From Deltaproteobacteria bacterium (GTDB taxonomy: Bacteria; Desulfobacterota; Desulfobacteria; Desulfobacterales; UBA11574), in assembly GCA_019308685.1 (NCBI GenBank), contig JAFDHQ010000018.1:1-35348 (forward strand): a stretch of 35,348 nt of DNA, in the 5' to 3' direction. This document shows, piece after piece, positions 14,889-24,694 of this stretch. Made by a program: the position numbers and the translations under genes. The number at the start of each line of letters is the position of its first letter. The first letter of the stretch is position 1. The notes beneath the pieces are model-generated. The model did not search any database, was not told where the DNA came from, and saw only the letters and a program-made list of their open reading frames with translations.

Positions 14889-16040
14889 TCAGGGTCTAGA
14901 AACCGTTACGGTGTTGAAACCTTTAGACAACCCCGCCAGATTTTTACCGTTGACTTCTATACCCAGTCCCGGCCCCTTCAAAGGATCGGCTTCACCCCCT
15001 GGTCCCATTGACACATCTTCGACGGTAAGATTTTTTTCGAGCAAAAATTCATCATATGAACCGTCACAGTATACGGCATCACTGCAAAGAAGGCATAAAA
15101 TCCTGCCGGCGGCCGAAAGAAGGCCGGACTCACCCAAATGGCATCCGATCTGGAAAGAAATTCCATTGGACCTTAAGTAATCGATAACCTTCAATGAATT
15201 TCTGAATCCTCCGCATTTGGACAATCTAACGTTGATCATCTTATAGGTGCCCTCTCGGACAATCTTTTTCATATCATCCAAAGAGCATGCCGACTCATCG
15301 GCCATCAGGACCACACCGGCATTTTGCATAAGCTCGGCAAAATCGGCAGTTTCCGGATCGTTAGGCCTCATCGGCTGCTCTACAACTTTTATCCCGTAGT
15401 TCTTTATCAAGGATAGGTGCTTTACGGCCAGAGCATAATCCCAGACACAGTTTATATCAATTTTAAGATCACAATCTTCTCCAAACACCATGCGAACCGC
15501 TTCCAGAATTTCTTTGTTTTGGGATAGATCTTTGCCCAATTTCAGTTTCAACTTTTTCACTTTCATTTTTTTGATCAGCTGACATATCTCAACAATTCTT
15601 TTTTTGCCGGCAAGCGGAAGTGCAGAGCCATAGTAAACTTTGTTTGTCATAAAATCTTTGGGAAAATAATCTATGATGTTTCTTCCCTGGCTTTTGCCCA
15701 AAGCATCCAGCAGCGCTGTTTCCAGAGCACAAATAGCAGCATTGTGAGCCTTTCCATGGAAAAGACCGTCAATAAAATTCCATATTTGAGAAATGTGATT
15801 CAACTCCCAGGGAAAATTATTCAAATTAATAAAGCGGTATATACTTTGAGCCACACTTTCCTGAGATTCTCCGGTTACAAAAGACCTTGGAGCGCCTTCA
15901 CCATATCCTTTGATTTTACCCTGTTCGGCAACCACTTCGGCGATGATGTTATTGACTGAATATCTTTTCCTCAGGGAGTGAGAGAACTCTTCTGAAAACG
16001 GAAGTATAATCGGATATACACAGATCTTGTCTATTCGCAT
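14889..16040 (-). CDS. Enolase-superfamily (muconate lactonizing subgroup) enzyme; dipeptide epimerase / N-acylamino acid racemase / OSBS-like
   Basis: KLKLKLG (KxK), DINCVWD, VVEQP, MADES, NVRLSKCGG, GCHLGESGLLSAAG motifs. Confidence 0.87.
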   Translation of the reverse strand: MRIDKICVYPIILPFSEEFSHSLRKRYSVNNIIAEVVAEQGKIKGYGEGAPRSFVTGESQESVAQSIYRFINLNNFPWELNHISQIWNFIDGLFHGKAHNAAICALETALLDALGKSQGRNIIDYFPKDFMTNKVYYGSALPLAGKKRIVEICQLIKKMKVKKLKLKLGKDLSQNKEILEAVRMVFGEDCDLKIDINCVWDYALAVKHLSLIKNYGIKVVEQPMRPNDPETADFAELMQNAGVVLMADESACSLDDMKKIVREGTYKMINVRLSKCGGFRNSLKVIDYLRSNGISFQIGCHLGESGLLSAAGRILCLLCSDAVYCDGSYDEFLLEKNLTVEDVSMGPGGEADPLKGPGLGIEVNGKNLAGLSKGFNTVTVSRP

Positions 16041-16083: not shown

Positions 16084-18057
16084 TCAGGAAGGAATATTCG
16101 GCAGTATTAAAGTAAATATTGCCCCTTCATTCTTATTGTTTCTTACTTGGATAATCCCGCCATGATCTTGCATATTTTGATGGGCTACAAACAATCCAAG
16201 GCCTGTACCGCTGTGAATATTACTCTTATGTTTCGTCGTAAAATAGGGATCAAACACCCTGTCAATATGAGAAGGTGGAATTCCGGGGCCATTGTCTTTA
16301 ATCTCAATGCTAACTGTGGCCTGTTTTTCCTTTTCCGTACAATTTTTTGTTATTAATTCGATCTTTCCTCCCTCAGGGGTAAAATCCACTGCATTTGAAA
16401 GAATATTTAAAACGACCTGTTTCATTTTTTCAGAATCCATCCAGACTTGCCCGATATTTGGATCAAATTGACAGGAGACATCAATCTTCTTGGCCTTACT
16501 TTGGGGTGAGATCAGAAGAATCATTGTATCAATCAATCCATGCAGATCATTTAACTCCATGTGCGATTCTTTTGTCTTAACCAGGTCCAGAAGTTCGGTA
16601 ATAAGATTATTTATCCGGCGTGTCTCTTCCAGGGCAATCTTATGAAAGTCTTGTTGAAATTCTTCATCGTTGTATTTCTGCGGCATCATCTGTATGAAAG
16701 TCCCTATGGCTGTTAAGGGATTTTTGATCTCATGGGCAAGTCTTGCCGCCAGATTTCCTAAAAAAGAGAATTTTTCTGACCGGCTCAAGAGAGCATGTGA
16801 TTGCTTGAGTTCTTCCATCTGTTCTTGAAGCCTGCTGTAAAGTTTCGCATTTTCTATGGCAATAGCGATCTGAGGGGCAAAAACTTCCAGTGTTTCCCGG
16901 GTCTCTTTGGGTACCCCCTTCCCATCAACCGCATCCGTGGCAATAATACCGATCACTTTGGAGCGAGTGATGAGGGGAATTACATATACCGAAGTCGGTT
17001 TGCCGTGGGTCAACATAATATTCTCTTTTCTAAGGGTTGAGCTCTTTACCTCAGGCACATATTCCGGCCGTCCGGTATTGGTTACCCTGACAAGAATATT
17101 ACTTAAACGGTTTAAAGAAACCTTGTAATTTTTGATGGCCTCCGGCATTTCACCATTAACACCAATACCGTGAATGTATTCAAGAAACCCTCTGTCTTCA
17201 TTAACCAGCATAATTACGGCACGATTGATCCGGCATACGGTGGACAGAAGGTTCATAATGACCGAAAGGAGTTGTTCCAGGTCCAGCAAAGACAGGATCG
17301 CCTTACCGGTTTCCTGTATGGCTTCAAGTTGTTTGATTCTTTTATTAAGCTCTATATTCAGCAGGTTGACTTCCTCGTATTTTTGTTCGATGACCGCTTT
17401 ATCTTCTTCCATTTCCGTTATGGTTTCCATAAGAACCGATTTTGACGTGAAAAACCGTGAAAAAATCTCATGGAATCTGTTTTTGAAAGGCCATTTAATA
17501 TGGTATTCACAGTATGGATTTCCATCAAAGTAGCAACATTTTTCTTTAATTACTGCGGGGCTTCCTTTCCATATTTGCGGCATTGAAGCATAAACGCCTT
17601 GATTATACAGGCATATATTTTTTGTTACCTCCATCTTAGGGTCCCAGTGTAAACGGACAACCGCGTTATTTTTTTTAAGTTCAACAAGCTCGACTCTCTT
17701 ATTTCTATTCCAGCGGTCATTTACTTTCTGGCCATGCTTGAGCGCTTTTCTAACAGACCAAAATGCCTTGAATATAATACGCTGAGCGTAACCCAGAGAA
17801 ATGTTTTCTGTAGCATACCTGCCGATTTTATAAGCCGCCTTTTCATCATTAAGGATAGATGCCGCTCTTTTGTATAATTTTGAAATAACGCTGCAGGAAA
17901 TCCAACTGTTGGGATCTCTTAAAAAACTTTCAGGATCCTGGAGAGCATCAATTTCAGGGTCAAGATTCCCAAAAAGAGCACTGCAGTCACCGTCATTATA
18001 TTTTTTGACATAATCAAGGATTGCTTTAGAATTTATGCAACTCGTTTCCTTTTCCAT
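16084..18057 (-). CDS. Sensor histidine kinase: V4R-like N-terminal sensor, GAF, HisKA, HATPase_c
   Basis: CCYFDGNPYCEYHIKW (V4R-like), GAF-like EAIQETGKAILSLLDLEQLLSVI.., LAHEIKNPLTAIGTF H-box, NILSNAVDFTPEGG, DNGPGIP, GTGLGLFVAH. Confidence 0.92.
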   Translation of the reverse strand: MEKETSCINSKAILDYVKKYNDGDCSALFGNLDPEIDALQDPESFLRDPNSWISCSVISKLYKRAASILNDEKAAYKIGRYATENISLGYAQRIIFKAFWSVRKALKHGQKVNDRWNRNKRVELVELKKNNAVVRLHWDPKMEVTKNICLYNQGVYASMPQIWKGSPAVIKEKCCYFDGNPYCEYHIKWPFKNRFHEIFSRFFTSKSVLMETITEMEEDKAVIEQKYEEVNLLNIELNKRIKQLEAIQETGKAILSLLDLEQLLSVIMNLLSTVCRINRAVIMLVNEDRGFLEYIHGIGVNGEMPEAIKNYKVSLNRLSNILVRVTNTGRPEYVPEVKSSTLRKENIMLTHGKPTSVYVIPLITRSKVIGIIATDAVDGKGVPKETRETLEVFAPQIAIAIENAKLYSRLQEQMEELKQSHALLSRSEKFSFLGNLAARLAHEIKNPLTAIGTFIQMMPQKYNDEEFQQDFHKIALEETRRINNLITELLDLVKTKESHMELNDLHGLIDTMILLISPQSKAKKIDVSCQFDPNIGQVWMDSEKMKQVVLNILSNAVDFTPEGGKIELITKNCTEKEKQATVSIEIKDNGPGIPPSHIDRVFDPYFTTKHKSNIHSGTGLGLFVAHQNMQDHGGIIQVRNNKNEGAIFTLILPNIPS

Positions 18058-18147: not shown

Positions 18148-19686
18148 TTATAACTTTAAAATTCGGGTGTTTCTTTGATCTGACATCAATTTTTTATATT
18201 TTTCGGTTAAAACGGGCACCGATTTTCTGAAAATTGAAAGGCTTTCTCCCTGTACGTTAAATATTGATCTGTTATTGTCTCTGAAACATGGATCGGGTAC
18301 GGCATCATCTCTTAAGGACCAAGCCGGAAGTCTGAAAAAAGGCATAATATTTAAAAGTGCATTTTTTATTTTTTGCGTGTAATTGGATAGATTAAAAATT
18401 TTAGTATTATAATCGAGAATAGTCTCAAAGTCCAAATTTTTCGACGGCTGTCTGACAATGTTCTGGCCAAAAACACCGTCATCGTCAAAAACAACATCCG
18501 GCAGAGATACGGCAAGGTCATAAATCTTGGTTTTGGGATATACATGACATTCCCCTACCTTAAAGATATGTCCGCCCGGACCTTTGTATTTAGACAAATT
18601 TTGGACAAAATCAAAGCTTTCTTTAAGATCTTTTTCCGTATCACCCGGATACCCTGAAATCATAAAAATGATCATCGGAATTTCATTTCGGGACGCTTCT
18701 TTGAAAATAGCTTGGGTATTTGCAATATATTTTTCATAATGAGATTTATCCTTAACTTTATTCATGCGTCTTAACGTATTGTAACTGGCCGACTCAAAGC
18801 CAAGGGCGATAATGCTGCACACATCTGCAATGCCGGAGATAATGGAAGGATCAAGAACATCGCAACGACTTTCAAAATTCACTTTCATTCCCAATGACCT
18901 GAGGAGTGGAAACAGATCAAAGGATTTAAAAAGAGCATCACTCACCAGCAGTGTGGGTGCATTAATTTTATCTACCAAATTTTTCAAATCGTTCTGGATG
19001 ATTTCTGACGGCACTTTTCTTCTATGGGGTCGTATAAATTCCTCCATGCAAAAATTACACCCATAGGCACAGCCCCTGCTGAATGCATAGGGTAGAATAT
19101 CGTAATCACCGGGATACATTAATAAATCAAGGTTAAGAAGCGCTTTTTGGGCAAGATCAAACCGTTTCCCTCTCCTGCTTAAATGGGTTTGGCCCTCTTT
19201 TTTCCACACAATGTTGGGGATATTCTCATTTATCGGGTTTTTCCCCTCATGCAAAAGTTCAACGATCTTCAGTGAAGGCTCTTCGCCTTCACCCAAAACA
19301 ATCAAATCGACGGCCGTGGTTTTGGAAAAGATTTCTTCATAGTAAATGGTCGGGAAATACCCCCCTAAAAAGATAAAAATATCAGGGTCCAACTTCTTAA
19401 TAAGATTGCAAATATCAACAACCTCTTCTGCCTGGGAAATTGCCGTGCATGATATGCCGACTCCCTTTGGTTTTATTTTAGCCAGGTCTTTAAAGAATTC
19501 CCGAATTATCTGTTTTTTTCCATCTTTGTTAAGAGGCAAACCATAGTCCATGGCTATGGAAATAACTTTGATTTCTATGTCCGGTCTTTTAATCTTTATA
19601 AAACTCGTGATTTCCAGAATAGGTAAGGGATAAGCAGGGACATACATCCCTGTATTTTTTGAAATCGGCTCAATAAACAAGAACAT
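18148..19686 (-). CDS. B12-binding-domain radical SAM protein
   Basis: N-terminal B12-binding-like fold (PAYPLPILEITSFIK.., LGGYFPTIYYEEI, DLIVLGEGEE), radical SAM CAYGCNFC (CxxxCxxC). Confidence 0.92.
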   Translation of the reverse strand: MFLFIEPISKNTGMYVPAYPLPILEITSFIKIKRPDIEIKVISIAMDYGLPLNKDGKKQIIREFFKDLAKIKPKGVGISCTAISQAEEVVDICNLIKKLDPDIFIFLGGYFPTIYYEEIFSKTTAVDLIVLGEGEEPSLKIVELLHEGKNPINENIPNIVWKKEGQTHLSRRGKRFDLAQKALLNLDLLMYPGDYDILPYAFSRGCAYGCNFCMEEFIRPHRRKVPSEIIQNDLKNLVDKINAPTLLVSDALFKSFDLFPLLRSLGMKVNFESRCDVLDPSIISGIADVCSIIALGFESASYNTLRRMNKVKDKSHYEKYIANTQAIFKEASRNEIPMIIFMISGYPGDTEKDLKESFDFVQNLSKYKGPGGHIFKVGECHVYPKTKIYDLAVSLPDVVFDDDGVFGQNIVRQPSKNLDFETILDYNTKIFNLSNYTQKIKNALLNIMPFFRLPAWSLRDDAVPDPCFRDNNRSIFNVQGESLSIFRKSVPVLTEKYKKLMSDQRNTRILKL

Positions 19687-19714: not shown

Positions 19715-20680
19715 TCAAATAAGGGAAGGTTCAAGCACAGGAGATGCCGGTGTTTCTGTTGCCACGTCAGTGGGTGCAAAAATATCCAAATTCGAATATT
19801 TTTTCCATTGATACCATTCTTCAGGAAATTTGTATATATAATGTTCCATAAATTTTAGGACGACCTCCCCGATGGACATATCCATGGATCGCTGATACTG
19901 CTTTGTCATTTCTTCCCAAGAAGATGTTATAAATTTATATCTTTGCCAGGAATCTCTGTGCATAGCTCCAAAAACGATAGCGGCCTTACATCTTTTGGAC
20001 AGAATATTTATTGTTTTGTCCATATGAATATGCTTGCCCAGAAAATCTATTTTTTTATTACGACAGGGCCTCCATTCATCTATCTCGTCACATTGGGTTA
20101 TCACAACCCGGTTTTCTTTTAGATTTTCAGAAATCGCTTTCATGATATTTGGGGTCCGGTCCGGGTCAATAAATCTGGCTGAAACTTCGCCGGCGCGTTG
20201 ATTTGATATTTCCCGCAACCGGTTTGTTTTAAATTTCACCACAATGGTTACCGGGTAATTATTTAACGCCAAATAACCCGGAATGAATTCAACCCCCCCG
20301 AGATGACCGGTGATTAAAAGAACACCCTTACCTTTGTTAAGCGCTTGATTTATATAGGTTATACCTTGATTCTCTATGTGTGTTCGGAAAAAGGTTTTCC
20401 ATGTTTCATTAGCGGAAAAGGCATTAAAAATTTTTTCGTAGTAATGGAATAAAATCCCTCTAAAAACGTCTCTTGTAATGGATTTTATTTCAGAGCTGTT
20501 TTTATGGTCCATGAAAACCGTTTTAACAGCCCTTTTGATTTTCCATTTTTCTTTTCTATTAAAGAAAAAATATAATTTACCCAAAATGCTCATATAAAAT
20601 AGGGTCATCCTCCACCCCAGCATCCTGCATAAAAAAATGTTGAATCGCCCTTGTAGAAAAGAACTTAAATTGATCTTCAT
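19715..20680 (-). CDS. Lysophospholipid acyltransferase family protein (LpxL/HtrB-like)
   Basis: LLITGHLGGVEFIPGYLAL (H-x4-E-like), ITQCDEIDEWRP, FLGKHIHM..., C-terminal PEEWYQWKKY. Confidence 0.87.
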   Translation of the reverse strand: MKINLSSFLQGRFNIFLCRMLGWRMTLFYMSILGKLYFFFNRKEKWKIKRAVKTVFMDHKNSSEIKSITRDVFRGILFHYYEKIFNAFSANETWKTFFRTHIENQGITYINQALNKGKGVLLITGHLGGVEFIPGYLALNNYPVTIVVKFKTNRLREISNQRAGEVSARFIDPDRTPNIMKAISENLKENRVVITQCDEIDEWRPCRNKKIDFLGKHIHMDKTINILSKRCKAAIVFGAMHRDSWQRYKFITSSWEEMTKQYQRSMDMSIGEVVLKFMEHYIYKFPEEWYQWKKYSNLDIFAPTDVATETPASPVLEPSLI

Positions 20681-20782
20681 GGGTATACCTCCATCGTGTT
20701 CTTGGATTTTTTTCCGCTTATAGCTGGATAGAATTTCAAAAACGTATAATTCACAACATCAAGATGAAAATAGAGGCGCAAC

Positions 20783-20809
20783 GAGGATTATTTTTTGAGC
20801 ATAACGCAG
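20783..20809. repeat. Remnant core of the MITE-like family (GAGGATTATTTTTTGAGCATAACGCAG)
   Basis: About 21/27 identical to core of the element at 28728-28871 (GAGGATTAAAATTTGAGACTGACGCAG). Confidence 0.4.
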
Positions 20810-20914
20810 AGACTTGTCCGCCTCCGGCGGATTGTGCGAAAAGACCATTAATCAACAGACTCATCTATTCAGGTTGAACCTATGATGTCTATCAATCCAT
20901 TTGCTTTCTTTTTT

Positions 20915-20930
20915 ATCAAAAAACGTGCCA
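20915..20930 (-). promoter_or_regulatory. Candidate sigma54 promoter (TGGCACGTTTTTTGAT on minus strand) for acyltransferase operon
   Basis: Matches TGGCACG-N4-TTGCW except TTGAT at the -12 box; about 235 nt upstream of the 20680 start. Confidence 0.42.
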
Positions 20931-21113
20931 CAACCTGCCGAATAGATGGGATCTGGGTTTTAAAAAGCTGTTTTGAGATAGACTTACGATAAGAATCTAT
21001 TTAAGATCCTTGTTTAGAGCGATGTTACATTAATTGAATAATATGAAAATATATAACAAAACAATTTATACTTTTAATAGACGAGGCTCGGCATGGAGAA
21101 TCAGATAAGAGAT

Positions 21114-21154
21114 ATGCACAGAAAAATGTGCACGATGCACATTTTTCTGTGCAT
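21114..21154. promoter_or_regulatory. Perfect 19-bp inverted repeat with 3-nt spacer; double TGCACA-N6-TGTGCA dyad, candidate NtrC-family enhancer (UAS)
   Basis: ATGCACAGAAAAATGTGCA-CGA-TGCACATTTTTCTGTGCAT; two dyads with centres 21 bp apart. Confidence 0.7.
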
Positions 21155-21287
21155 TTTAGTTTTGAACACTCTATGATTGACGAAAATAAAATTTTATGAT
21201 GAAATATTTTTTAAGGATCTTAACACCGAATTAACCATAAAATAATAATAACTTAACATAGTCTGACGCAGGTGGGCTTAAAAAACA

Positions 21288-21303
21288 TGGCATAAAGTTT
21301 GCT
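21288..21303 (+). promoter_or_regulatory. Candidate sigma54 promoter (TGGCATAAAGTTTGCT)
   Basis: TGGCAY-N5-TTGCW with GG-N10-GC spacing, about 90 nt before ATG of the NtrC-family regulator. Confidence 0.7.
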
Positions 21304-21392
21304 TGTTCGGCCATTGTTTTAAATCTCCCGATATTTGTAAACCGGCCCATCCGAAACTTGCGGATTATAAATGAAGAACGAGTAAACTGGAT

Positions 21393-22745
21393 ATGAAAAA
21401 AAATCATACGATTCTTGTTGTGGATGATGAAAATGGCGTTCGCCAGTCATTCAACATGGTCTTAAAAGATGACTATAATGTGCTTCTGGCGGGTACAGGT
21501 CAACAAGCTATAGATATTTTTATAAAAAATAAAGTCGATCTGGTTTTGCTAGATATCCTTTTGCCGGATACCGGAGGCCTGAACCTCCTTGAAAAATTCA
21601 AGGAAGCAGATCCTAATACAGAAATAATCATGGTAACCGCAGTTAATGAAGTTCAAACGGCGGTAAAGGCGATTAAACTGGGGGCGTATGAATATATTAT
21701 TAAACCGTTTGTTGTGGATGATGTCTTGACGGTAATCCATCGGGCCATGGAAAAACGAAGTCTGGTAAAAGAAGTTGCCTATCTAAAGGACGAACTCGAA
21801 CGATATTGCCCCTTTGAGAAGATGGTCGGCAAAGATGAAAAGATGATAAAAATCTTTGAGTTGATATCGATTGTTTCTCAAGGTGATGGCAGCGTACTGA
21901 TACAGGGGGAAAGCGGTACGGGCAAGGAACTGGTTGCCAGAGCCATTCATAACCGGGGATCAAGACATAAAGATCCGTTTGTGGTTATTAATTGTTCCGC
22001 CATACCGGCGACCCTGATGGAGAGTAAAATTTTCGGTCACAACAGGGGAGCGTTTACCGGGGCCACCCATACCAGTGTCGGAAAACTGGAAATTGCAGAC
22101 AAGGGGACTATTTTACTGGATGATATCGATTCTCTGGATATCAATATGCAGGCTAAGCTTCTACGAATCATTCAGGAAAAAGAATTTGAAAGACTCGGCA
22201 GCACCAAGGTTGTCAAGGTTGATGTCAGGTTTGTGGCATCTTCGAACAAAGACCTCAATAATTTGATTTTACAGGAAGAATTTCGTGAAGATCTCTATTA
22301 TAGGCTGGCCGTTTTTCCCATCGAACTCCCTCCCCTAAGAGAAAGAAAAGACGATATCCCACTTCTATTGAACCACTTTTTGGAATTAAATTCCATGAAT
22401 ACCGGGAAACCTCCCAAAATATTTTCCGAAGAGGCCGTTGACATATTAACAGAATATGATTGGCCGGGAAATGTCAGAGAACTTCAAAACCTGGTAGAAA
22501 GATTGTTTGCCATTACAAAAGGCTCTGTGATTCATCTTAAAGATATTTCCACTTTCAACACTGGTAAAAGGGGAATTAAAGATATGACCCTTAAACAAGC
22601 CGTTAGAGAATTTGAGAAAAATTACATTTCCGAGATTCTTGAAAGCGTTGACGGCAATAGAAAAAAGGCTGCAGAACGACTGGGAATACACCGTAATACA
22701 CTTTTTGCCAAAACCGTCGAATTCGGTTTGAATACAAACAAATAA
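21393..22745 (+). CDS. Sigma54-dependent NtrC-family response regulator (receiver, AAA+, HTH)
   Basis: ILVVDDENGVRQ receiver, GESGTGKELVARAIH Walker A, GAFTGA loop, AERLGIHRNTL HTH. Confidence 0.95.
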   Translation: MKKNHTILVVDDENGVRQSFNMVLKDDYNVLLAGTGQQAIDIFIKNKVDLVLLDILLPDTGGLNLLEKFKEADPNTEIIMVTAVNEVQTAVKAIKLGAYEYIIKPFVVDDVLTVIHRAMEKRSLVKEVAYLKDELERYCPFEKMVGKDEKMIKIFELISIVSQGDGSVLIQGESGTGKELVARAIHNRGSRHKDPFVVINCSAIPATLMESKIFGHNRGAFTGATHTSVGKLEIADKGTILLDDIDSLDINMQAKLLRIIQEKEFERLGSTKVVKVDVRFVASSNKDLNNLILQEEFREDLYYRLAVFPIELPPLRERKDDIPLLLNHFLELNSMNTGKPPKIFSEEAVDILTEYDWPGNVRELQNLVERLFAITKGSVIHLKDISTFNTGKRGIKDMTLKQAVREFEKNYISEILESVDGNRKKAAERLGIHRNTLFAKTVEFGLNTNK

Positions 22746-22806
22746 ACCTATCGGAAATTCTACAAAGGAAACCTCCTCTATTTCACATCTTTTTTTTTAT
22801 TTATCC

Positions 22807-22835
22807 TTGACATGAATTTGCAAAATGTTTATAGG
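22807..22835 (+). promoter_or_regulatory. Putative sigma70 promoter upstream of the RsbRD_N/dsr operon (TTGACA-N17-TATAGG)
   Basis: TTGACA 22807-22812, TATAGG 22830-22835. Confidence 0.45.
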
Positions 22836-22993
22836 ACTTTTTTCAATGTGATTTTTCTGTTTTTTTTCTCCAAATGGAAATGGTTTATCTCCAACGGGAA
22901 CGGTCGATTAACCAACTGATATTAATAGGCAATTTTGTTAATATCGACTGGTGATCGACTCAATAGAAGTGGAAATTTGGAGCGGTCCTGAAT

Positions 22994-23539
22994 ATGAGGC
23001 TCAACAATTTGCTGGCGCAAAGAAAAACCGCGATTATAAAAAACTGGTTTACTTTAGCAGTTGAAACTTATCCGCCCGACACCGCATCATTTCTAAAAAA
23101 GCAAAAAGATCCGTTTGCCAACCCTGTTGGAAGAACCATATCCCGGGGATTGGAAGCATTGTATAATGAACTCCTCAAAGAGATGGACCATGACTCCATA
23201 ATTTCCTTCCTCGATCCTATCATCAGGATCAGAGCGATTCAAAACTTCTCCCCTGCACAAGCCATAAGTTTCATCTTTCTTTTAAAAAAGGCCATAAGAG
23301 AAAATATAAAAAAGGAGGCTTTGGAAGAGCAGCTTTTCAATGAACTGCTGTTGTTCGAGTCAAAAATCGATCAATTGGCCATGATTGCGTTTAACCTTTA
23401 CATGGAATGCAAAGAAAAGATTTACGACCTCAAAGCCAATGAGATGAGAAATACAACTTATAAGGCTTTTAAGAGGGCGGGTTTGGTTAGAGAGATGCCG
23501 GTGGATGAACCGGACATTAAACCTAATGTTAATACTTAA
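22994..23539 (+). CDS. RsbRD N-terminal domain-like protein preceding dsrM
   Basis: LLAQRKTAIIKNWFTLAVETYP.., NPVGRTISRGLEALYNELL, FSPAQAISFIFLLKKAIRE; helical RsbRD_N-type pattern. Confidence 0.75.
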   Translation: MRLNNLLAQRKTAIIKNWFTLAVETYPPDTASFLKKQKDPFANPVGRTISRGLEALYNELLKEMDHDSIISFLDPIIRIRAIQNFSPAQAISFIFLLKKAIRENIKKEALEEQLFNELLLFESKIDQLAMIAFNLYMECKEKIYDLKANEMRNTTYKAFKRAGLVREMPVDEPDIKPNVNT

Positions 23540-23656
23540 GGAGGCTTCAAACGGTATATTAGTTTTTTGAAAAATCATTTGTAAAAAAGCTGCCTGAGAC
23601 GATTTTGGATAAACTTTATATGTTGTTATGAGGCCATTAAGTGAGGTAATGGTATA

Positions 23657-24694
23657 ATGAATATTAGTTACATGTATTCCCTCGTAGCGGTAATCGTTCT
23701 GTTTCTGGTTGCCTATGTGGGCGTTATGTTGCCGGGGGGTGAGGTATTTTTTGGTATTATCATACCTTATCTGGCGTTAGTTATTTTTATTTTGGGATTT
23801 ATAAACCGCATTATAGACTGGGCCCGTTCACCGGTTCCTTTTCGCATTCCCACAACATGCGGTCAGGAAAAATCTTTGCCCTGGATCAAACCCAACAGCA
23901 TTGACAACCCCACGACTATCGGCGGCGTTATTATTCGGATGTTTCTGGAAATCGTTTTTTTCCGGTCATTATTCAGAAATACAAAAATGGCATTAAAAGA
24001 GGGCGATAAGCTTTCCTATGAATGGGAAAAGTGGTTGTGGCTCTTTTCGCTGGCATTTCACTGGACCTTTTTCGTCGTATTATTCAGACATCTTCGATTC
24101 TTTTCGGAACCGGTGCCGGCTTTAGTGGAATTAGTGGCAAAACTGGACGGTTTTCTGCAGATCGGACTGCCGGAGCTTAGAATTTCCGGCGTGGTCCTGC
24201 TGGCCGCTTTAATCTTCTTGTTCTTAAGAAGAATATATATTCCACAGATGAGATATATTTCACTGGCTTCAGACTATTTCCCCCTGTTTTTGATTATTGG
24301 CATTGCGTTTACCGGAATCTTGATGCGCTACTTTACTAAGGTGGATATCGTGGGTGTAAAAGAGTTTACCATGAGCCTGGCAACTTTTAAGCCCCATATC
24401 ACTGAAGGAATCGGCAGCATTTTTTATGTGCACCTATTTTTTGTCAGTGTTCTTTTAGCCTATTTCCCCTTCAGCAAACTCATGCACCTGGGAGGAATTT
24501 TTATGAGCCCCACCCGAAATATGGTCAACAACAACCGTTTTAAAAGACATATCAATCCATGGAATTATCCTGTCAAGGTTCACACATATGAAGCATATGA
24601 AGACGAGTTCAGGGAAAAGATGGTCGAAGCAGGATTGCGCGTGGATAAACCGTTAGCGGCGAAACCGCCGGAGGAACCAGAGGAAAAGGAGTAA
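23657..24694 (+). CDS. dsrM: DsrM, membrane cytochrome b subunit of the Dsr sulfite-reduction-associated complex
   Basis: NarI-like TM protein with conserved His, LGGIFMSPTRNMVNNNR; first gene of dsrMKJOP. Confidence 0.94.
   Translation: MNISYMYSLVAVIVLFLVAYVGVMLPGGEVFFGIIIPYLALVIFILGFINRIIDWARSPVPFRIPTTCGQEKSLPWIKPNSIDNPTTIGGVIIRMFLEIVFFRSLFRNTKMALKEGDKLSYEWEKWLWLFSLAFHWTFFVVLFRHLRFFSEPVPALVELVAKLDGFLQIGLPELRISGVVLLAALIFLFLRRIYIPQMRYISLASDYFPLFLIIGIAFTGILMRYFTKVDIVGVKEFTMSLATFKPHITEGIGSIFYVHLFFVSVLLAYFPFSKLMHLGGIFMSPTRNMVNNNRFKRHINPWNYPVKVHTYEAYEDEFREKMVEAGLRVDKPLAAKPPEEPEEKE

Follow-up and report, generated by a model that had tools for sequence, protein, structure and literature searches.

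A paired dyad element as the probable enhancer of a sigma54-dependent two-component regulon in sulfate-reducing Desulfobacterota

The stretch of DNA analysed here, 35,348 nucleotides long (the window), is contig C241 of a 3.26-Mb genome in 283 contigs; it has 42% G+C and contains dsrMKJOP at about 23.7-28.7 kb (names from products), hence its host is a sulfate reducer. Between the gene of an NtrC-family response regulator and an operon transcribed in the opposite direction lie two neighbouring copies of the palindrome TGCACA-N6-TGTGCA, with a putative sigma54 promoter on either side, which raises the question of which protein reads them and which genes it controls. As argued below, the double dyad is very probably the upstream activating sequence of the regulator encoded at 21393, which would act, together with its kinase, on both divergent promoters and on a regulon.

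The double dyad and its putative divergent promoters

The two dyads predicted between the divergent boxes were borne out base for base, and so was the rightward GG-N10-GC match ahead of the NtrC-family gene (Table 1), which is the sole strict TGGCA[CT]-N5-TTGC match of the whole window. The centres of the dyads are 21 bp apart. Measured from the dyad edge, the right box is 134 bp away and the left box 184 bp, and they precede the ATG codons of the regulator and acyltransferase genes by 89 bp and 234 bp, respectively. By chance, 0.0018 exact dyads are expected in the window and 0.17 in the genome; eight were observed in the genome, and none in a reversed-pattern control. The long leader of the acyltransferase gene also contains a perfect palindrome, CCGCC-TCC-GGCGG (20818-20830), which was not found in 94 kb of other loci of the same genome.

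Table 1. Position and assignment of the features around the double dyad
Feature	Position	Strand	Basis
Enolase-superfamily enzyme (dipeptide epimerase / OSB synthase-like), last gene of proposed operon	14889-16040	-	PF13378; synteny
Cytoplasmic histidine kinase, V4R/H-NOX-superfamily sensor and GAF, proposed cognate kinase	16084-18057	-	Pfam GAF, HisKA, HATPase; model and fold match
B12-binding radical SAM protein	18148-19686	-	PF02310, PF04055; synteny
Lipid A-type acyltransferase, first leftward gene	19715-20680	-	PF03279; synteny
Leftward -24/-12 box TGGCACGTTTTTTGAT, predicted acyltransferase-operon promoter, non-canonical -12	20915-20930	-	TTGA/TTGT class
Dyad 1 of predicted enhancer, TGCACA-GAAAAA-TGTGCA	21115-21132	.	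letters and pattern search
Dyad 2 of predicted enhancer, TGCACA-TTTTTC-TGTGCA	21136-21153	.	letters and pattern search
Rightward -24/-12 box TGGCATAAAGTTTGCT, predicted regulator promoter	21288-21303	+	consensus match
NtrC-family response regulator (receiver, sigma54 AAA+, Fis-type HTH), proposed activator	21393-22745	+	Pfam PF00072, PF00158, PF25601, PF02954; recognition helix IHRNTL

The element was compared with the double dyads of ten related genomes (the present one, G002, G003, G006, G011, G013, G020, G031, G045 and G047), 70 in all, which include orthologues and are hence non-independent. The contigs of these metagenome-assembled genomes are short. In the window, the arms ATGCACAGAAAAATGTGCA (21114-21132) and TGCACATTTTTCTGTGCAT (21136-21154) are perfect reverse complements flanking CGA, each holding one exact dyad; thus the 19-bp inverted repeat of the original prediction (21114-21154) is perfect as described, but it is not a conserved unit, since the A/T-rich N6 spacers have the same orientation (++ or --) in 25 of the 70 sites and the +- arrangement of the window in 35. 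The spacer between the paired dyads is 3 bp in 37 sites, 4 bp in 26, 2 bp in four and 5 bp in three. Judged by these copies, the unit of the element is the tandem dyad rather than a long inverted repeat.

Promoter boxes were sought within 250 bp of these double dyads by our own simple sigma54 consensus, TGG[ACT]A[CT]-N5-TTGC, with the -12 variants TTG[AT] and TTGG admitted after looking at the data. TTGC boxes pointed away from the dyads in 22 cases and toward them in none, TTG[AT] boxes in 31 and one, TTGG boxes in two and none, so that all strict boxes together amount to 55 away versus 1 toward, a contrast that does not depend on the independence of the sites; the background expectation was about 1.1 TTGC and about 1.8 TTG[AT] boxes, calculated from the density of the loci with the sites themselves included. 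For 18 of the 70 double dyads, no outward box was recognised at 200 bp or less. The window's left promoter falls into the TTGA/TTGT group, and its -12 base is never C in 13 aligned regions of the home family; the predicted leftward box with a single -12 deviation is therefore present, but the deviation is no oddity, being typical of a recurring class. These results suggest that GA or GT at -12 marks a functional sigma54 promoter class in these bacteria.

By distance, the boxes can be divided into class A, about 96-185 bp from the dyad, which includes the left promoter of the window, and class B, at 49-51 bp, where all ten boxes have TTGC. An IHF-like WATCARNNNNTTR lies between dyad and box in 9/10 class B and 3/42 class A sites, although the pattern was spotted before counting and in the same data. 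In the compact class B arrangement (L178, L209, L211, L212, L218, L219, L220, L221, L223) the double dyad is followed, after 49-51 bp, by TGGYAYNNNNNTTGC, and the genes downstream are heterogeneous and often distant.

Conservation of the locus and its link to the regulator

Alignment of 13 orthologous intergenic regions confirmed that the dyad is conserved: identity is 99.7% at its half-site bases, 96.8% in the N6 spacers and 69% over the 3-4 bp separating the dyads, with 89% for the right box and 92% for the left, against an overall 64% in the intergenic region. The regulator has 22 named orthologous loci, 60-95% identical, most of them with exact or near-exact upstream dyads; the closest named relative is “Desulfobacteraceae bacterium Eth-SRB2” (95%). 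In the home family the gene order is enolase-kinase-radical SAM-acyltransferase, then the element, then regulator-RsbRD-dsrMK on the other side, and both boxes are retained in nearly all orthologous loci; at more distant loci the enolase, the kinase and often the acyltransferase still adjoin the regulator. The leftward box is retained in the distant G031, G045 and G047, where the rightward box was not found by our consensus scan, so that sigma54 autoregulation may be restricted to the home family. At four distant orthologues (L028, L030, L032 and L034) one or two exact dyads occur up to about 360 bp past the regulator stop, followed by a forward box, perfect in L030 and L032 (TGGCATGAACATTGCT and TGGCATGATCATTGCT), and another operon is thus probably regulated there.

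The regulator contains a receiver domain (PF00072, E 1.5e-25), a sigma54-interacting AAA+ domain (PF00158, E 4.8e-65) and a Fis-type HTH (PF02954, E 1.6e-12); the genome has one RpoN gene. Among 60 relatives, double dyads were found in all 22 genomes with an orthologue of this regulator and in 8/38 without it; six of these eight are from the home family, most of them incomplete, and the others are G025 (family f3) and G039 (family f17). At least three exact dyads occur in 18/29 genomes with the orthologue versus 7/263 without, over 292 genomes of the order (Fisher p 6e-16), or, counted by family, in 5/9 versus 2/64 (p 1.6e-4); G181 and G199 have the regulator and no exact dyad. The HRNTL helix is identical in all orthologues examined, and the best regulator matches in five genomes lacking the orthologue have the helices DRQTL, NRKTL, SFRSL and SRRTL. 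G025 and G039 encode a regulator that is 45-46% identical, has the HRNTL helix and has dyads beside its gene; dyads 19 bp apart (spacer 1) are found in these two families (G025:C83, G025:C102, G039:C85, G039:C119), pointing to a variant of the system with a shifted spacing. The recognition helix of Escherichia coli NtrC has the core RNTL, and NtrC reads TGCAC half-sites arranged over 17 bp; this agrees with a related reading head of 18-bp spacing in the present regulator.

Several known systems resemble the present one. The NtrC site is a 17-bp palindrome, TGCACCAnnnTGGTGCA, with TGCAC half-sites (PMC8743547); the statement that NtrC-family activators recognise TGCAC-type dyads thus holds for NtrC itself, but not across the family, and the present site is 18 bp long. 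The two systems share the TGCAC half-site palindrome, the RNTL helix core and paired sites upstream of sigma54 promoters, but the present dyads have an AT-rich N6 and their targets include no nitrogen genes. Identity with NtrC was rejected on the basis of scores of 419.8 (TIGR01818, cut-off 558.6) and 322.6 (NF008176, cut-off 620). In the enterobacterial ZraSR/zraP (HydHG) system, an NtrC-family response regulator acts on the divergent sigma54 promoters of zraSR and zraP and so controls both itself and its kinase (PMC4987338), as is predicted here; unlike that system, the present kinase is cytoplasmic and V4R-like and its gene belongs to the operon that faces away from the regulator gene, the target genes differ and the predicted regulon comprises about nine or more loci. 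ZraR and AtoC were likewise rejected (343.8 against the NF007689 cut-off of 760, and 438.6 against the NF008469 cut-off of 714). The PrsK/PrsR system of PEP-CTERM proteins, in which an enhancer motif and a sigma54 box precede many surface-protein genes (PMC1569441), also combines an NtrC-like response regulator and a kinase with a regulon of surface genes, but PrsR motif 1 ends in TTTACA at about 63 nt from the box and PrsK is a transmembrane protein; PrsR identity was rejected as well (405.2, TIGR02915 cut-off 502.6). By its domains and by these curated cut-offs, the regulator is classified as an NtrC-family member distinct from NtrC, ZraR, AtoC and PrsR. For Desulfovibrio vulgaris Hildenborough, also a sulfate reducer with many NtrC-family regulators, the enhancer motifs of the sigma54 regulome were defined by DAP-chip and comparative genomics (PMC3333781, PMC4641369); a TGCAC motif does not appear in the main texts of these papers, in which the motif logos are figures and thus lie outside the text covered.

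Extent of the predicted regulon

The scan of the genome for TGCACAN6TGTGCA near sigma54 promoters, run as a double-dyad pattern with up to three mismatches and a spacer of 3 or 4, gave nine double dyads (C241, C12:3811, C116:16298, C209:7981, C217:3918, C110:39841, C151:2754, C244:3695 and C250:4556) and none with the reversed pattern. An outward -24/-12 box lies no more than 200 bp from seven of them; at the other two, those of C217 and C110, none was recognised. Outside the window, the nearest genes code for a DUF6765 protein (perfect box TGGCACAGGTATTGCT), a PilZ protein, a receiver-domain protein whose site is flanked on its opposite side by a PilZ gene, a receiver and adenylate/guanylate cyclase protein, a GAF-MshEN-T2SSE ATPase (perfect box) and, where a contig ends, the first part of a secreted protein (L007:4851-4970; perfect box), whose N-terminus resembles teneurin-like proteins of G002; an FKBP/DUF362 gene pair and a ComEA-like helix-hairpin-helix protein adjoin the double dyads with no recognised box. 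In the relatives, the further predicted targets are again PilZ and receiver proteins, as well as secreted proteins of giant size. The latter have teneurin NHL, TTR-like or FN-plug domains or RHS repeats (L174:2-3118, L181:3764-7000, L190:4102-6999, L195:2-3283), and outward -24/-12 boxes are present at several of these loci.

The original prediction that the regulator controls its own gene and the acyltransferase/radical SAM/kinase/enolase operon agrees with the conservation of dyads and boxes, the outward orientation of the latter and the co-occurrence; the predicted regulon, however, is far wider than that, and the rightward box, not found by the scan in the three distant genomes, limits the first half of the claim. 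The whole apparently represents an undescribed two-component regulon, mostly of surface, secretion and signalling proteins, that would be unusually wide as well as conserved. No account of the TGCACA-N6-TGTGCA motif was found in the literature covered, that is, outside subscription papers, figures and supplements.

Four integron integrase genes also have an upstream double dyad with an outward -24/-12 box: two in G011, one in G031 and one in G002 (L221:3493-4633, L222:257-1684, L203:300-1793 and L262, upstream of intI); TIGR02249 confirmed the assignment for the G011 and G031 genes. Where enough upstream sequence was available, the element was present at 4 of about 9 intI genes in regulator-bearing genomes versus 0 of about 17 elsewhere (p 0.008), a hand count on small numbers. 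Within the same literature coverage (subscription papers, figures and supplements excluded), no link between integron integrases and sigma54 was found.

The sensor kinase, the proposed mechanism and its rivals

The first leftward gene in G031 is the kinase itself (L202), which supports its pairing with the regulator; the kinase is probably the cognate partner. The model of its N-terminus (pLDDT 81) gave H-NOX as the best Foldseek match (E 4e-7) and a poorer match to the MopR sensor 5kbe (E 7e-4); sensor-domain sequence searches against the PDB gave no match, and the V4R family PF02830 matches 5/17 kinase N-termini with a best E of only 0.012. Heme H-NOX proteins are recognised by an invariant proximal His and a Y-x-S-x-R motif. 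Despite the fold match, a heme sensor was rejected, because no His is invariant in 17 sequences and the kinase of the window has no YxSxR. C149, E172, C175 and C183 are invariant in all 17 (C-X22-E-X2-C-X7-C), likely forming a metal site, and their spacing is, we assume, that of the MopR zinc site. Since the Cys/Glu/Cys/Cys set is invariant and the heme residues are missing, a V4R-like, metal-containing ligand sensor is the favoured reading of the modelled domain.

On the other side of the element, around 22745-23657, the regulator gene is followed in the home family by an RsbRD_N protein and dsrMKJOP, and a sigma70-like TTGACA-N17-TATAGG precedes RsbRD at about 22807-22835; this site may drive the dsr side separately. 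Control of dsrMKJOP by the dyads is not claimed: synteny is conserved, but the window has no second dyad and the sigma70-like site stands before RsbRD.

In the mechanism that we consider most likely, the cytoplasmic kinase of the divergent operon would sense a small ligand, or a redox or metal state, through its V4R-like domain and phosphorylate the regulator. A regulator dimer would then occupy each dyad through the Fis-type helix IHRNTL and, as family knowledge suggests, paired dyads about 21-22 bp apart, or two helical turns, would nucleate the AAA+ oligomer. The oligomer would loop to sigma54 polymerase at the rightward box, for autoregulation, and at the leftward box, for the acyltransferase/radical SAM/kinase/enolase operon; with both flanking promoters activated, the two halves of the two-component system would be induced together. 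Copies of the element would drive the larger regulon, mainly PilZ, receiver, cyclase, secretion/pilus and giant secreted teneurin/RHS-like proteins.

The dyads might instead be read by a different sigma54 activator, either true NtrC or a paralogue of the response regulator, with the neighbouring regulator gene just one of its targets. Many NtrC-family proteins are encoded in the genome (28 scored matches), and NtrC itself reads TGCAC half-sites (PMC8743547); yet dyad counts track this regulator orthologue over the 292 genomes, most orthologous loci have dyads adjoining its gene, the NtrC site has 17 bp and not 18, and the regulators that match best in the five genomes without the orthologue differ in their helices, all of which makes this explanation unlikely. 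It is improbable, too, that the enhancer serves a single promoter, with a dead leftward TTGA box or an incidental rightward one: the left box does lack GC at -12 and the rightward box was not found in three distant orthologues, but TTGA/TTGT boxes as a class point away from the dyads almost without exception, and in the home family the left and right boxes are conserved at the 92% and 89% given above.

If the inverted repeat were no protein site but a hairpin in RNA, a terminator working in both directions or a palindromic repeat of the dispersed kind, this would account for its perfect 19-bp stem and 3-nt loop, which should fold strongly, and for the copies scattered through the genome. This explanation is very hard to sustain, however, as the long stem is not conserved, the outward sigma54 boxes are left unexplained and there is no Rfam match at the element; the hairpin or terminator reading was rejected on the dyad orientation, which is the same in 25/70 copies.

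With an enhancer read by the neighbouring regulator as the preferred explanation, a broader picture can be drawn, although only tentatively. In one order of Desulfobacterota, made up of sulfate reducers and related bacteria, about nine families may share a hitherto undescribed two-component sigma54 regulon through which an internal V4R-type sensor acts on surface and second-messenger functions (PilZ, receiver, receiver-cyclase, MshEN-T2SSE ATPase and giant teneurin/RHS-like proteins). Its promoters would be of two kinds, looped at about 96-185 bp and compact at 49-51 bp with an IHF-like site, and it may have repeatedly captured integron integrase genes. Probable c-di-GMP effectors, a cyclase, the machinery of pili or secretion and teneurin-like proteins of bacteria would thus be tied to a cytoplasmic sensor kinase. 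According to these data, some integron integrases may respond to a sigma54 activator and, if true, integron recombination would be under sigma54 enhancer control. For a large, mostly uncultured lineage of sulfate reducers, the analysis provides a concrete assignment of regulator, motif and regulon that is testable from sequence.
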